A stretch of DNA of 45,834 bases from a virus. The stretch is taken from positions 1 to 45,834 of IMG/VR virus record IMGVR_UViG_3300044470_000166; one strand, written 5' to 3'. Below, piece by piece: positions 9,815 to 32,914 of this stretch; the stretch's first letter is position 1; every line of letters starts with the position of its first letter. Below the pieces are notes generated by a model, which did not search any database, was not told the origin of the DNA, and saw only the letters and a program-made list of their open reading frames with translations. Position numbers and translations under genes: made by a program.

Positions 9815-9905
9815 ATGTAAGAGTGCTCTAGCCTCTGAGCTATAGGGCCTTCCGGCCCCAGAGGGACTCGAACCCCCAACCTCTCCTTTCTAGACTGTGC
9901 TTCCA
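9815..9905 (-). pseudogene. tRNA halves in permuted order (3' half, GGAA, 5' half)
   Basis: Reading the minus strand: a T-arm (GGGGG TTCGAGT CCCTC) and acceptor 3' strand TGGGGCC, then GGAA, then acceptor 5' strand GGCCCTA, TA and a canonical D-arm (GCTC...GAGC). The two acceptor strands pair over 7 bp. The outer ends (CTCTT after the D-arm, AGGAG before the variable loop) also pair as an anticodon stem. The anticodon loop itself is not canonical (no U33). It is either a permuted tRNA gene or the product of duplication and deletion. Confidence 0.5.
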
Positions 9906-9944
9906 ATACACCACAAGACGGATTCGAACCGCAACCTGCCAGCT
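9906..9944 (-). pseudogene. tRNA fragment with T-arm
   Basis: The segment GCGGTTCGAATCCGT is a T-arm with its T-loop. It is squeezed between tRNA-Ile and the permuted halves and runs directly into a D-arm-like GTGTATTGGAAGCAC. No full cloverleaf can be built. Confidence 0.45.
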
Positions 9945-11565: not shown

Positions 11566-12199
11566 TTTCTCCCCTTAGTTTATTTACTTTTACCCATCTC
11601 TCGTATCTATCTAAAAAATCAAATTGTTTATTATTATCTATAATAGACCTTATTTTACTCACATACTCATATGCCTGTTCTACCGTTTTACCTAATCTAA
11701 CAAAACAACCTACTACTATAATACCTGTACGCCCATGACCACCATGACAATGTACCAATACATTACTCTTATTTTTTAGTAAAGTCAATATCATTTCAAC
11801 AAGCTTGTTGAAGGAAACAAAATCCTTAGGCACACCATAGTCTACAATAGGGTAGTGTATTACTCTCAACCCATTTTCCTCGTATACATCAAATAAACCT
11901 TTATCTATATATATCCTATCTAAATCTTGTTGCTCTAATAATACTACAACAGTAGTGATATTAGCATCTATAGCTTTCTTTGAGATTATCTCTGCTTCTT
12001 TTGTATCTAATGGTGCTGCTGTCATATATAGTTTGGCCCCATTAGAGAAAGGGATAGGGTCTAATTTTAATATTCTAGGTAGCTTCTTTTTAAAAGGTAT
12101 GTTATCATAATCATCAGTTGGGTAAGCCTCACTCAATATTTTATATAATTCAATATTTGTTTTCTTAAGCCATTGAATATTTTTTCCCCATTCAGTCAT
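11528..12199 (-). CDS. protein tyrosine / dual-specificity phosphatase
   Basis: Start taken at 12199 (MTEWGKN...), after AGGGG. The core VLVHCHGGHGRTGI holds the CX5R loop (C-HGGHG-R) with the following Thr and Gly of PTP/DSP enzymes, and the upstream DYGVPKD segment could be the general-acid loop. It would hydrolyse phosphate from phosphotyrosine or another phosphomonoester; the target is unknown. The last 38 nt overlap the exonuclease gene. An ACTAATT element lies upstream. Confidence 0.8.
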   Translation of the reverse strand: MTEWGKNIQWLKKTNIELYKILSEAYPTDDYDNIPFKKKLPRILKLDPIPFSNGAKLYMTAAPLDTKEAEIISKKAIDANITTVVVLLEQQDLDRIYIDKGLFDVYEENGLRVIHYPIVDYGVPKDFVSFNKLVEMILTLLKNKSNVLVHCHGGHGRTGIIVVGCFVRLGKTVEQAYEYVSKIRSIIDNNKQFDFLDRYERWVKVNKLRGENDDKRGATSGSK

Positions 12200-12215
12200 A
12201 GTATTACCCCTATCC

Positions 12216-12222
12216 AATTAGT
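12216..12222 (-). promoter_or_regulatory. ACTAATT element
   Basis: GACTAATT followed by GGAT and AGGGG before the ATG at 12199. It sits at the T-run of the terminator at 12225-12263, so it could restart transcription for the phosphatase and exonuclease genes. Confidence 0.4.
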
Positions 12223-12224
12223 CT

Positions 12225-12263
12225 AAAAAAGGAAGGAGCGGGGGTCTTACCTTCCCCCGCCCC
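12225..12263 (-). terminator. rho-independent terminator
   Basis: The minus-strand transcript forms a GC-rich 10-bp stem (GGGGCGGGGG/CCCCCGCTCC, one mismatch), then TTCCTTTTTT. It ends the transcript coming from the 13474 gene and the gene-free stretch after it. Confidence 0.88.
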
Positions 12264-12718
12264 AATTAATATCTTTCAAGGATATTGTTAGTATTGCTAG
12301 TACCGTTTCGGGCCGAAGTCACCCAATGGTTTGTACTAAAAACGCCGAGTCTTCCACCGACTCTCCTCTCCCACAAAGAATTCTGTTTCCAAAATGCTTA
12401 GTGGGAGGGATTGGATTCGAACCAATGCCTACGTTAAACTACCATTGTTGCCAATGCCTCTGTCACAATCTAGACTTAAGAAAACTATGAGCAATACACT
12501 AAAAATTAAGTTGGTGAAACTTTGATACTCGTAACGATGTAGAATAACCAATCCTACAATACTCCTACTGACACTAAAACTAGCTCTTAAAGAATCAGCC
12601 CCCAAAGCAACCCTTATGTGCTAAAGGAGGTGCACTTCTAGGAAGGTATCAAAAACCTAAAAGTGATAATACCACACAAAGATTGCTGTGGTGGAGCTGA
12701 CTCCATTATACATCTTAA
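12264..12718 (-). ncRNA. candidate structured RNA with a tRNA-like T-arm
   Basis: 455 nt without a convincing ORF between the 12719-13474 gene and a strong terminator. It contains a full T-arm with acceptor 3' strand (ATTGG TTCGAAT CCAAT CCCTCCC A, 12402-12440) but no matching normal 5' half. A GNRA hairpin CATTG-GCAA-CAATG and a hairpin GAGTC-GGTGGAA-GACTC are also present. At 12591-12603 the minus strand reads GGGGGCTGATTCT, matching the start of bacterial tmRNA, but neither the conserved GGATTCGACGGG nor a tag reading frame is present. RNA class unresolved. Confidence 0.4.
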
Positions 12719-13474
12719 TTAACTGTTGATATAGGTGAAGAGTTTATCACCTAACTTTACGTTCACTACTTGGGCCTGATTAGCTTGCTGACGGGCCTGT
12801 TTTACTGCCTGTATGAGGGTATCAATCTTTGACAAAAGATTGGACTTCTCTATAGGCTGCAAACGACCAGTTGAATAAGTAGTCTCGTACCTACCTACCT
12901 GCACAACATTCTTCACCAACTCGGTCTGAGCAGCGAATTTATCAGTAGCAGCGGCTTTAAGTAATACCTCTAACTTCTCTACTGACCTAAATTTGGTCTC
13001 GACAGGGGCTACATAGATGGCCCTAGCCTGGGTAGGGTCCTTCGTCCATGAGCGGGCAGGGTCCACCGTAGGAATCTTTTTGTAAACCTCACGAATTCGC
13101 ACTAGATACTTCTCTAGCGCAATTAGAGAAGTAGCTGAGAGGGTACCGAAGTCAGTACCATCATCGAGCTTCAAAGGGGCAGTAGCAGTGCCGGAAGCAT
13201 TGGTCTCTTCCTTGCTAATGGTAGCATCGATAGCCTTGATCATAGCATCCTTGGCATAGTCAAGTTTCTCGGCTACAGTAGTAACCAGTTCCTTCTTCTC
13301 AGGAGGAATCTGTTCTCCATTCTGATCAAATGAAACGTAATTCTTTAGCACTCCATCAAAAAGGTCTTCCTTTTTGGTGAACGTATTCAAGCATTCCACA
13401 TCAAGGATATTCCTTGACTGTTGTGCTAAATCTTGCTCCACGCAAAGTAGCTGATGTAAAAAATTTCCTGACAT
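12719..13474 (-). CDS. conserved phage/bacterial hypothetical protein
   Basis: 251 residues with the pattern LHQLLCVEQDL, CLNTFTKKEDLFDG, TTVAEKLDYAKDA, LIALEKYLVRIREVY, IPTVDP-RSW, DPTQARAIYVAP and KIDTLIQAVKQARQQAN. I know this layout from a helical protein family common in phages and some bacteria, with no assigned function. AGGAGAAGGAA precedes the ATG, and a strong sigma70-like promoter lies at 13528-13556. Codon use is less AT-rich than in its neighbours, which suggests high expression or recent acquisition. Confidence 0.8.
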   Translation of the reverse strand: MSGNFLHQLLCVEQDLAQQSRNILDVECLNTFTKKEDLFDGVLKNYVSFDQNGEQIPPEKKELVTTVAEKLDYAKDAMIKAIDATISKEETNASGTATAPLKLDDGTDFGTLSATSLIALEKYLVRIREVYKKIPTVDPARSWTKDPTQARAIYVAPVETKFRSVEKLEVLLKAAATDKFAAQTELVKNVVQVGRYETTYSTGRLQPIEKSNLLSKIDTLIQAVKQARQQANQAQVVNVKLGDKLFTYINS

Positions 13475-13556: not shown

Positions 13557-13767
13557 TATGTGTTTTGCTCATCTTCTGTTTAGTCTCTTCTGAATGATGT
13601 TTACCATACATACCATTATTTTTACCAGAAGTCTTCTCACTTATTTTCTTTTTTGACTCTTCTGAATGTATATGCCCTGTAAAACCTATTGTTCTAATAT
13701 TAGTAGCAGTAGAGCCTGAATCTCCATAAAAACGGGAAAGGTTGGTTTTGTTCCAACAATCACTCAG
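13534..13767 (-). pseudogene. NUMOD3-type homing endonuclease remnant
   Basis: An open frame without a start codon reads GFTGHIHSEESKKKISEK, GKNNGMYGKHHSEETKQKM and ends in TAG at 13534-13536. These are typical NUMOD3 repeats of homing endonucleases. The frame is closed upstream by TAA. The nuclease domain is absent, so this is a decayed mobile gene. Its 3' end has been overlaid by the promoter of the 13474 gene. Confidence 0.7.
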
Positions 13768-14020
13768 GAATTACCCTTTGTAGTTTTCCATTAAACTACT
13801 TCCCCAAAAAATAGAAGGGGGGCACTGTTGATAGCATCTCAGCCCACTATGGATAAATCCCACTTTACCCTGCCCTCGTTAGTTTACTATTGGCGCACAG
13901 TGTATCGAAAAGTTCCATAAGCGGTAGGCTAGAGCCTTTGGGTAAGGTACTACCCCCAATACTCGTTTACTCCTCTTCTTTCTGGTATTGCCAGTTTTCA
14001 ACTGCTCCCGGTCCCTTCTT
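13768..14020 (-). ncRNA. gene-free, hairpin-rich stretch with own promoter
   Basis: About 250 nt without a convincing ORF, downstream of the promoter at 14026-14054. Hairpins include CAGTT-GAA-AACTG (near 13996), AGGCT-CT-AGCCT (near 13930) and GTAGTTT...AAAACTAC (near 13790). The last sits in a tRNA-like arrangement with GGGAAG...CTTTCCC and a GTTGG/CCAAC arm, but without canonical loops. Class unknown. Confidence 0.35.
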
Positions 14021-14025
14021 ATAAT

Positions 14026-14054
14026 ACTATACTATTCTTTTTCAAAAAAGTCAA
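14026..14054 (-). promoter_or_regulatory. sigma70-like promoter
   Basis: TTGACT (14049-14054), 17-nt spacer ending in ATAG, TATAGT (14026-14031). It lies at the very end of the 14032-14895 endonuclease gene and reads into the gene-free stretch 14020-13768. Confidence 0.75.
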
Positions 14055-14895
14055 TAGGTCTTTTAGCTCCTACAAATCTTCCAGCACACGATCTTGAACA
14101 AAAGCCATGTTCTGTTTTTATTTGTTTATTTCTAAAAAATTCTTTTTTACAATACTCGCATATGTAAGAAAACTTTGGTTTATAATTATCATATAGATAA
14201 TATATTTTATCTTTACTTATCTTGTAAATACTTTCTACATAATCAAACTCTTCTTGTAAATTTTCTTTTCTCTTTACTATGACATAGTATCCATTATACT
14301 CTGCTATTTTATTCTTTTCATCTACAGAAGAATCTCTTTCATATCCTTTTATTTCAATTATATTACCTTTTTGTAAAAAATCAGGAATATATTTTCTTTT
14401 AGTAAAAGGAGCTGAAAGTTCTTTTTCAAATCTACTAAAAGGTATATTATTATCTAATTGATATATTACCCAGGCAAGTTCATAAGTGCTACCACAATAT
14501 ATTCCTTTATAATATCCGCTTTTAGATCGTCCTGAGCCTTCCCTATACCCCCCAGTAGATACTTTTCTAAAAATATGTTTGCTATCCTTATTATAACATG
14601 CTTTACTACAATATATTTTTTTAGAATAGCAAGGAGGAACATTAAAAGTATTTTTACAACAAGGACATATTTTATGCACTCTTCTATTTTTTGCTTTTTC
14701 TACAAATATTTCTTGCCCTTTTTTCCATAATCCAGAAGTTTTAATGGATATACTGATTTTTAACTTAGTTTCTTCTGAGTGTATCCTAGTATTAGAACAA
14801 GCCCTTGAGCAGTACTTACAAAGAGTCCCCTCTCTTTTTCCTTTATCCTTTCTCCAATCTTTATAAAATGTTTTACCACAATTTATACATTTCAT
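14032..14895 (-). CDS. homing endonuclease, zinc-finger plus PD-(D/E)XK/EDxHD-like nuclease
   Basis: 287 residues. Zinc modules lie at both ends: CINCGKTF with CKYC near residues 3-30, CPCC with CSKAC near 76-101, and a C-terminal CEYCKKEF with CSRSC. A NUMOD3-like stretch (SEETKLKISISIK) precedes the nuclease part, which has GSTYELAWVIYQLDNNI, YIPDFLQKG and IIEIKGYER, matching an E...PDF...ExK pattern. It is closely similar in plan to the 2219 and 8567 products. The start has ACTAATTA plus 3 nt and no Shine-Dalgarno site. It lies directly downstream of the tRNA with an anticodon-loop insertion. Confidence 0.8.
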   Translation of the reverse strand: MKCINCGKTFYKDWRKDKGKREGTLCKYCSRACSNTRIHSEETKLKISISIKTSGLWKKGQEIFVEKAKNRRVHKICPCCKNTFNVPPCYSKKIYCSKACYNKDSKHIFRKVSTGGYREGSGRSKSGYYKGIYCGSTYELAWVIYQLDNNIPFSRFEKELSAPFTKRKYIPDFLQKGNIIEIKGYERDSSVDEKNKIAEYNGYYVIVKRKENLQEEFDYVESIYKISKDKIYYLYDNYKPKFSYICEYCKKEFFRNKQIKTEHGFCSRSCAGRFVGAKRPIDFFEKE

Positions 14896-14945: not shown

Positions 14946-15044
14946 TAGCCCATAGCAGACTCGAACTGCTTTTCCAGGATTTCTATACTCACTCATTCAA
15001 ATGAATATAGAAAGCCCTATTTCTTACCTATAGAAGAATGGGCC
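14946..15044 (-). tRNA. tRNA-Glu (TTC) with 28-nt anticodon-loop insertion
   Basis: Canonical acceptor GGCCCAT/ATGGGCT, D-arm TTCT-ATAGGTA-AGAA, T-arm AGCAG-TTCGAGT-CTGCT and anticodon stem TAGGG/TCCTG. The loop between the stem strands is 35 nt (14980-15014) instead of 7. Removing 28 nt after C36 leaves CTTTCAA, the loop expected of Glu-TTC (compare CTCTCAA in the neighbour Glu-CTC). The insert forms a hairpin in which TTTC of the anticodon side pairs with GAAA at its 3' end. No group I core fits in 28 nt. Confidence 0.75.
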
Positions 15045-15048
15045 TCAA

Positions 15049-15121
15049 TAGCTCCACTCGGATTCAAACCGAGGCTCTTCTCCTTGAGAGGGAGATGACT
15101 TAATCACTCGTCTATGGAGCC
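15049..15121 (-). tRNA. tRNA-Glu (CTC)
   Basis: Acceptor GGCTCCA/TGGAGCT, anticodon stem TCTCC/GGAGA, loop CTCTCAA giving CTC, and T-loop GGTTTGAATCC. Confidence 0.9.
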
Positions 15122-15384
15122 ATAATAAAGGTGGTTCTCATACACCCGGTAGCTGTAATGGCAAGCCATCCATACAGTCAAGCTAACCTTCGGATAGTGG
15201 GAATGTCGCTCCTTCTAAGTGCAAGGTGGGCTCCCCCAGTCAACCTAACTTCACTACGTATGTGATACTCCCCGATTACTCCATACTACCCCTTAGCGGG
15301 CTCTAAGGCATCCCCATGTATCACGAGGGAGGTTATTTCATACTGTCCTATTTCTAGGACAAGGGCTAACACTCTAACCCTATT
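15122..15384 (-). ncRNA. gene-free, hairpin-rich stretch between tRNAs
   Basis: 263 nt without a plausible ORF. There is a clear nested hairpin CTGTA-ATGG-CAAG-CCAT...TACAG (near 15151-15180) and a 7-bp-type hairpin GTCCTATTTCTAGGAC (near 15345-15360). No T-loop sequence is present, so it is not a missed tRNA. The processed product, if any, is unknown. Confidence 0.35.
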
Positions 15385-15457
15385 TACCCCACCTAAGACT
15401 CGAACTTAGACTGAATAGTTCTTGAAACTACTGCCTCTGCCTTTGGGCTAGTAGGGC
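15385..15457 (-). tRNA. tRNA, anticodon CAA by position (Leu-like, class I)
   Basis: Acceptor GCCCTAC/GTGGGGT, anticodon stem GTAGT/ACTAT, loop TTCAAGA giving CAA, and T-arm CTAAG-TTCGAGT-CTTAG. CAA would be Leu, but the long variable arm expected of Leu tRNAs is missing and position 37 is G. The identity is therefore uncertain. Confidence 0.65.
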
Positions 15458-15465
15458 ATATTATC

Positions 15466-15578
15466 TGCCCAAGATGGGACTCGAACCCATACACTCTTTC
15501 GAGTACTGGATTAACTGAAGCTCTATTTACAAAGCTTCCGTTAAGTCCAGGGTGTCTGACCAATTCCACCACTCGGGC
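15466..15578 (-). tRNA. tRNA-Leu (TAA) with 28-nt anticodon-loop insertion
   Basis: Canonical class II tRNA: acceptor GCCCGAG/CTTGGGC, D-arm GTGG...CACC with GG, variable arm TACTC-GAAA-GAGTG, and T-arm TGGG-TTCGAGT-CCCA. The anticodon stem CTGGA/TCCAG encloses 35 nt (15511-15545). Removing 28 nt after A36 leaves CTTAAAA, a normal Leu-TAA loop. The insert carries GAAGCT/AGCTTC, and TTAAC of the anticodon side pairs with GTTAA at its 3' end. The insertion length equals that in tRNA-Glu (TTC). Confidence 0.8.
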
Positions 15579-32005: not shown

Positions 32006-32914
32006 ATGACTATGATAGGAATATATAAAATAATTAATATTACTAATAATAAAGTATATATTGGACAAAGTTATAATATAGAACGAAGATTAAAAGAACA
32101 TGAAAAAAATTATGTATTTAAAGGATATCATCTTCAAAAAGCTATTAAAAAATATGGATGGAGCAGTTTTAATACTGAGATTTTAATACAGATAACTGAA
32201 GATGCGTATACTCAAGAATTATTAGATTTTTATGAAACCTATTTTGTATTTTACTATGATTCTATAAACTATATTTATGGGTATAATATTAAATTTCCCG
32301 GAAGTCATGGAAAAGCTTCTAAAGAATCAAAAAGAAAAATGAGTGAAAATCATGCTAATGTTGTAGGTAAAAATCATCCTATGTGGGGAAAGAAGTTTTC
32401 GGAAGAATCAAAAAGAAAAATGAGTGAAGCACAAATGGGAAGGAAGTTTTCGGAAGAATCAAAAAGAAAAATGAGTGAAGCAAAAACAGGTAAAAACAAT
32501 CCTATGTGGGGAAAGAAGCTTACTGAAGAAACTAAAAGAAAACTGAGTAAAGCACAAATGGGAAGGAAGTTTTCGGAAGAAACAAAAAGAAAAATGAGTG
32601 AAGCAAAAATAGGACATAAGGTTTCAGAAGAAACAAAGAAAAAAGATAGCATAGCTAAATTAGGAAATAAAAATCCAAGATATGGCCTTCATTATTCTGA
32701 GAAGGAAAAAAAGAAAATGAGTAAAGTTCTTTTAGGGGAGAAAAGCCCTAGAGCAAGATCAGTTATTTGTATTGAAACAAATAAAATATATAGTTTTATA
32801 AAAAAAGCTGGAAAAGAAACAGGTATTTGTTCAAGCTCCATAAGTGATTGTTGCAGGGGAAAGTATAAAACTGCTGGTGGTTTTCATTGGAGTTATTTGG
32901 AGGGCAATAAATGA
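32006..32914 (+). CDS. GIY-YIG homing endonuclease with NUMOD3 repeats
   Basis: 302 residues. The nuclease domain starts with [24 protein letters not shown] (GIY...YIG) and has the catalytic Glu further on. At least six NUMOD3-like units follow ([12 protein letters not shown] repeats, residues 100-240), then a NUMOD1-like end ([21 protein letters not shown]...GGFHWSYLE). It is inserted between the helicase and DUF2829 genes with GGAGG upstream. The repeat DNA is nearly identical between units. Confidence 0.92.

Follow-up and report, generated by a model that had tools for sequence, protein, structure and literature searches.

Small hairpin inserts in the anticodon loops of phage tRNA genes as candidate mini-introns

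Introduction

Introns that are removed from tRNAs by proteins are a textbook feature of archaea and eukaryotes, in which short inserts in the anticodon loop of the pre-tRNA pair with the anticodon and are processed by EndA or TSEN together with RtcB or Trl1. In tRNA introns of the bulge-helix-bulge type, two 3-nt bulges flank a helix of 4 bp, the cut sites are located within the bulges, and the canonical site is between nucleotides 37 and 38. To our knowledge, the only tRNA introns known from bacteria and phages are self-splicing. Group I introns, which are self-splicing ribozymes of hundreds of nucleotides with a P3-P8 core of at least about 200 nt, also occur in the anticodon loops of bacterial and phage tRNA genes, including that of tRNA-Leu(UAA), a known home of such introns.

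Intervening sequences in bacterial 23S rRNA are excised by RNase III, after which the rRNA stays fragmented. The signature of RNase III is a 2-nt 3' overhang, and its products carry the 3'-OH and 5'-phosphate ends that T4-type RNA ligases, but not RtcB, use. Cells infected by phages are targets of anticodon nucleases, which phage tRNAs can evade by changes in the anticodon loop (PMC10264068). In phage T4, tRNA-Lys that has been cut by PrrC is repaired by Pnkp and Rnl1 (cited in PMC10264068).

Here, we analyze 2 tRNA genes in a viral record of 45,834 nucleotides (IMG/VR record IMGVR_UViG_3300044470_000166, positions 1 to 45,834), the whole of which is referred to as the window. A sequence-only reading of the window had suggested that these genes contain a new type of mini-intron. 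No report of such inserts in phage tRNAs was found in the open-licence literature searched, and reports may exist elsewhere.

Results

Both genes are located on the minus strand, which the sequence-only reading had left unspecified. The gene for tRNA-Glu(UUC), identified by ARAGORN in intron mode and by a tRNA-geometry detector, spans positions 14946 to 15044 and contains a 28-nt insert (14982 to 15009; UAUAUUCAUUUGAAUGAGUGAGUAUAGA) between nucleotides 36 and 37, with the anticodon UUC (nucleotides 34 to 36) at 15010 to 15012. The gene for tRNA-Leu(UAA), identified with Rfam and by ARAGORN in intron mode, spans positions 15466 to 15578, has a long variable arm, and contains an insert of 28 nt between the same 2 nucleotides (15513 to 15540; CGGAAGCUUUGUAAAUAGAGCUUCAGUU), with the anticodon UAA (nucleotides 34 to 36) at 15541 to 15543. 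The loop sequences, CTTTC-TATATTCATTTGAATGAGTGAGTATAGA-AA in tRNA-Glu and CTTAA-CGGAAGCTTTGTAAATAGAGCTTCAGTT-AA in tRNA-Leu, bear out that both anticodon loops consist of 35 nt, and removal of the 28 nt located 3' of the anticodon restores the 7-nt loops CUUUCAA and CUUAAAA, as had been claimed. Both genes have intact acceptor, D, anticodon, and T stems.

ARAGORN missed both genes without the intron option and detected both with the option, and it called ordinary tRNA-Glu(ttc) and tRNA-Leu(taa) genes when the inserts were left out. The tRNA-Leu gene including its insert scored 42.5 bits with the Rfam tRNA model, as compared to a gathering score of 29. The previously noted pairings, TTTC with GAAA in tRNA-Glu and TTAAC with GTTAA in tRNA-Leu, were found to be correct. 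The helix begins at U33-A38, while C32 is not paired; in tRNA-Glu it continues for 15 bp including the anticodon, and in tRNA-Leu it contains one G.A mismatch 2 positions into the insert. The MFE z-scores of the whole genes were -4.9 for tRNA-Glu and -5.6 for tRNA-Leu, and none of the shuffled sequences was as good. When only the inserts were shuffled (2000 times per gene), the observed energy of the arm was not reached in either gene; the contiguous extension of 15 bp in tRNA-Glu was reached in 0 of the 2000 shuffles and that of 5 bp in tRNA-Leu in 78 of 2000. Among the 8626 codons of the larger open reading frames in the window, GAA was the third most common and UUA was the top Leu codon, both ranking among the most frequent codons of the window, and the only tRNAs for these 2 codons detected by ARAGORN in the window are those described here.

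ARAGORN also predicted a tRNA-Leu(caa) gene of 75 nt at 15384 to 15458, which lacks the long variable arm expected of tRNA-Leu and is of doubtful identity. Weak tRNA matches of 35.2 and 23.9 bits, not called by ARAGORN, were located on the minus strand at 13733 to 13805 and 9853 to 9920, respectively. A gene for an HNH homing endonuclease (14032 to 14895) is located directly downstream of the tRNA-Glu gene, and a gene for a GIY-YIG homing endonuclease at 32006 to 32914. The window also encodes a DUF7873 protein, for which no relatives were found in the viral contigs searched and only distant relatives among annotated phages.

The loops seen in the window recur elsewhere. With patterns based on the tRNA consensus and a simple tRNA-geometry detector, applied to a viral collection, the same architecture was found in at least 19 distinct tRNAs, encoded by a variety of viral contigs and by T4-like phages isolated on Aeromonas, a count that refers to the matches listed from selective patterns and is not an estimate of frequency. 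The arms, in sequences designated by L numbers, comprise Leu-UAA in the window, L085/L143, L133, L138/L144, L140, and L142, Arg-UCU in L138/L144, L231, L284, L317, L325, L350, and the Aeromonas relatives, Ile-UAU in L288 and L319, Thr-UGU in L314, and Glu-UUC in the window. L231 is the T4-like isolate Aeromonas phage PX29. Two insert-bearing genes are located close to each other in the window and likewise in L138/L144.

In all 19 arms, U34 pairs with A37 and nucleotide 36 with the second-last base of the insert, and the right anticodon for the tRNA body, U33, A37-A38, and the register that gives a 7-nt loop have been kept. The bias toward U34 and A37-A38 is partly built in, since one of the patterns fixed CTT and AA, though not the pairing between insert and anticodon, and the pairing in the Leu set is partly built in because its pattern required CTTAAC and GTTAA. 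Two of the pattern sets were unselected for the pairing with the anticodon, and the Arg gene in L138 was met without any pattern. The inserts were 24 to 29 nt long in 17 of the arms and longer in 2, with an overall range of 24 to 40 nt. The identical length emphasized in the sequence-only reading, which is true of both genes in the window, is therefore only partly constrained and partly a coincidence.

Covariation was examined in 6 arms of equal length, which represent independent tRNAs aligned by register and not by descent, and 3 of which are related Aeromonas genes. The fraction of paired cells was 95%, as compared to 43% to 49% in slid controls; 15 of the 20 pairs had changed on both sides, and 0 of 500 shuffles was as good.

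A single mismatch, apparently between purines, was observed 2 positions into the insert in the tRNA-Leu of the window, L133, L142, L284, L288, and L314, just past the cut proposed below. The inserts in the tRNA-Leu of the window and the tRNA-Ile of L288 share a common core, CGGAAGC...GCUUCAG, as if inserts had moved between tRNAs. In L142, a viral contig of 122 kb, a flagellin-like gene (11802 to 13076) is located beside the hairpin tRNA-Leu. Five candidates with odd or weakly paired inserts (L111, L050, L257, L157, and L313) were set aside as unproven members. Most matches to the first Leu-type pattern were not introns but tRNA-like RNAs that lack an anticodon arm, a pattern based on the Glu insert gave a single chance match without a proper arm, and no isolates related to L337 and L325 were found.

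In the Aeromonas phages, the gene for tRNA-Arg(UCU) is located after gene 57B and before 2 tRNA-Leu genes. It contains an insert of 26 to 28 nt in PX29, avDM12-TAAL, Ah1, AsFcp_4, phiWae14, and Aeh1; at the same locus in phiAS5, tRNA-Arg(UCU) is uninterrupted and has the loop CUUCUAA, identical to the predicted loop. The junction is unique, since this loop is restored only by removal after nucleotide 36. Large differences among the phages are seen in the tRNA bodies at this locus, while the insert has been kept. Since the insert may have been lost from phiAS5, or another copy of the tRNA gained, the empty site is not proof of splicing. The interrupted gene is labeled as a two-piece tRNA-Lys in the RefSeq record of PX29 and as tRNA-Glu in that of Aeh1. 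The passages found in the genome paper of Aeh1 give a count of tRNAs, report no group I introns, and make no mention of an insert in tRNA-Arg (PMC1524935).

The Arg-UCU pattern gave 34 matches in 84,980 bacterial and archaeal species, 33 of which were in archaea and 1 in a bacterial MAG, which had no proper anticodon stem and was rejected; the phage form was thus absent from bacterial genomes in this one scan. All 5 matches to the same pattern in viral contigs were of the phage form. The archaeal loops nearly all read CUUCUA with a single extra A on the 3' side, which places the insert after nucleotide 37, with the exception of L390, which ends directly in AGAA. Many of the archaeal matches had the 3-nt AAA bulge of the bulge-helix-bulge motif when folded with the same program, whereas nucleotides 34 and 36, A37, and the second-last base of the insert were helical in all 19 phage arms. 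The likeness to archaeal introns put forward in the sequence-only reading therefore fails in detail: the phage inserts are located within a continuous helix and, as judged from the CTTCTAA loop, after nucleotide 36 and not between nucleotides 37 and 38.

A second class of inserts in the anticodon loop, of about 44 to 49 nt, has the form of a mini-tRNA, with an acceptor stem, a T arm, and an NCCA end. Such inserts were found in L337 (316 to 432), L360 (1889 to 2005), L334 (3357 to 3476), L289 (654 to 773), and L310 (917 to 1032, reverse strand), and in L295, L272, L199, and L169. With slashes at the ends of the insert, the loop reads CUU/GUCGAA...UUCGACUCCA/AUAA in L337, L360, and L169 and CUUUU/GUCAGA...UCUGGCACCA/AA in L310, and these inserts fold into a 7-bp acceptor stem and a 5-bp T arm with an NCCA tail. 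The inserts in L334, L289, L295, and L272 have the same NCCA ending; that in L199 has kept the CCA end and folds poorly. When the mini-tRNAs were left out, canonical Ile-UAU, Lys-UUU, or Val-UAC loops were obtained.

Widespread in phages are also tRNA-like RNAs (L009 to L128 and L146 to L264) with acceptor, D, and T arms and no recognizable anticodon arm, which is replaced by 50 to 80 nt of variable sequence. In Aeh1 (96384 to 96505) and its T4-like Aeromonas relatives, an RNA of this kind is conserved beside rI.1, where the annotation gives tRNA-Val or tRNA-Leu. The anticodon arm of the tRNA-like RNA in L192 is one long hairpin without the U33-anticodon motif (GCGATAAGCGTATTACTTCGGTAGTACGTTTATCGA).

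PX29 encodes full homologs of T4 Rnl1 and Rnl2. A gene for an Rnl5-like ligase in L142 (8821 to 10068) and a gene for an Rnl2-like ligase in L288 (5712 to 6359) are located 1.2 kb and 1.5 kb, respectively, from the hairpin tRNA. A ligase above the family cut-off was identified in 12 of the 18 records with inserts that were at least 25 kb long, with both insert classes included, versus 4 of 8 tRNA-rich controls, a difference that is not significant. No ligase was found in 2 large records with inserts (120 kb and 147 kb), and no RNA ligase in the window, a record of 45.8 kb that is possibly incomplete. RtcB was present in 2 of the 32 records searched. RtcB, one of the options named in the sequence-only reading, is therefore unlikely as the general ligase, because it is rare while T4-type ligases are common, although not universal, in the insert-bearing records.

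Discussion

The inserts look like a new type of tiny intron, because hairpins of the same kind are seen in many unrelated phages and a sister phage has a clean empty site. On balance, we favor the interpretation that the 28-nt inserts are mini-introns of phage tRNAs, which would be removed by an RNase III-type cut followed by sealing with a T4-type RNA ligase. That splicing occurs, and which nuclease and ligase take part, is what we infer from the genome sequences. In the transcript, nucleotides 33 to 36 and A37-A38 would zip with the insert into a hairpin of about 20 bp, and a double-strand-specific endonuclease, most likely the RNase III of the host, would cut both strands near the middle of the helix, after nucleotide 36 on one strand and before nucleotide 37 on the other, with 3' overhangs of 2 nt. 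This would release a 28-nt hairpin and bring the 2 tRNA halves, with 3'-OH and 5'-phosphate ends, together in an anticodon loop of 7 nt, to be joined by an ATP-grasp ligase of the T4 Rnl1, Rnl2, or Rnl5 kind, encoded by the phage or the host.

In the register of the phage arms, a cut with a 2-nt 3' overhang would yield loops of exactly 7 nt, and the predicted product is a canonical tRNA according to ARAGORN and, for Arg, the form of the gene in phiAS5. Without U34 and A37-A38, the helix would not be unbroken across both cut sites, which is probably why these nucleotides are required. Below the cut, the helices comprise 7 to 9 bp, and above it mostly 8 to 13 bp, consistent with the near-continuous substrate of about 20 bp expected for RNase III; some are interrupted above the cut, and those of the Leu arms in L138 (5 bp) and L140 (6 bp) are short and marginal for this enzyme. 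The weak-looking helices, and the recurring purine-purine mismatch, which might be read by a dedicated enzyme, could point to removal of the introns by another endonuclease, either phage-encoded or a different host RNase, since the architecture, the empty site, and the covariation would suit any helix-directed nuclease. We consider another endonuclease unlikely: a 2-nt stagger is characteristic of RNase III, and no shared nuclease candidate was met in an unsystematic look at the insert-bearing phages.

The mini-tRNA inserts could be released by RNase P and a 3' tRNA nuclease, which would also leave 3'-OH and 5'-phosphate ends. That the ends of both insert types coincide exactly with sites at which processing enzymes would cut strengthens the intron interpretation. 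We tentatively suggest, with less confidence than the interpretation of the 28-nt inserts, that phages contain a new and specific class of protein-spliced introns, cut in the manner of RNase III and sealed by a phage ligase, together with a sister class of nested mini-tRNAs that end in CCA and would be excised by tRNA end-processing enzymes.

The unspliced RNAs might instead serve as decoys, or resist tRNA-targeting defenses, as the sequence-only reading had also proposed: a paired anticodon would be unreadable by anticodon nucleases, and no decoding tRNA would be made. Such nucleases exist and can be evaded through changes in the anticodon loop of phage tRNAs (PMC10264068), and other phage RNAs lack an anticodon arm while retaining the acceptor, D, and T arms. 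We find this improbable, however, since decoys do not need the matching anticodon, U33, A37-A38, and the 7-nt register that all 19 arms have kept. Moreover, phiAS5 has a plain decoding tRNA at the same locus, and ARAGORN detected no further tRNA for GAA or UUA in the window; the decoy idea leaves the kept isoacceptor, anticodon, and exact 7-nt loop unexplained.

It is very doubtful that the window represents an archaeal virus with ordinary bulge-helix-bulge introns, despite the small size of the inserts, their location in the anticodon loop, and their pairing with the anticodon. The archaeal Arg genes carry the insert 1 nucleotide further downstream, many with the AAA bulge; both cut sites of the phage form would be inside the helix, and this form occurs in phages isolated on a bacterium, Aeromonas. 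Equally remote is gene decay, in which the inserts would have arisen at random or be left over from group I introns in tRNA genes that are being lost. The role of tRNA-Leu(UAA) as a home of such introns and the odd tRNA-like sequence in the same region of the window could be cited for this idea, but the stems are intact, the lengths cluster at 24 to 29 nt after nucleotide 36, 2 such genes occur together in both the window and L138/L144, and the covariation of the paired inserts contradicts it. As stated in the sequence-only reading, a group I element cannot fit: inserts of 24 to 40 nt are too small for such ribozymes, and no group I intron was matched in the window at the Rfam gathering scores.

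The favored mini-introns thus differ from group I introns in size. Their known hosts are so far bacteria, unlike those of the archaeal and eukaryotic introns, and the ends joined by the ligase would be 3'-OH and 5'-phosphate. Like the intervening sequences in 23S rRNA, they form an extended stem-loop at the tip of a hairpin in a stable RNA of the bacterial domain, with a helix suited to RNase III, but they are much shorter and located in phage tRNAs. A tRNA is split in the anticodon loop by such a cut and therefore needs to be ligated, unlike the fragmented 23S rRNA. Sealing of a break in the anticodon loop by a phage RNA ligase is also a feature of T4 Pnkp/Rnl1; that system repairs damage by a host nuclease, whereas the break at the phage inserts would be a programmed step of maturation. 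Of the original mini-intron proposal, the intron has gained support from the recurrence, the covariation, and the empty site in the sister phage, while the archaeal likeness does not hold in detail and RtcB is unlikely as the general ligase.

If correct, these would be the first small introns that are not self-splicing in tRNAs of the bacterial domain, and ordinary processing enzymes together with a phage ligase would be able to splice. The interpretation would explain why some phage tRNAs, such as the tRNA-Arg in Aeh1 and PX29, are missed or mislabeled by gene finders, and can be tested in isolated Aeromonas phages, with phiAS5 as a natural control. It would also give phage RNA ligases a routine role in maturation besides repair, and tRNA-rich phages a reason for keeping them.
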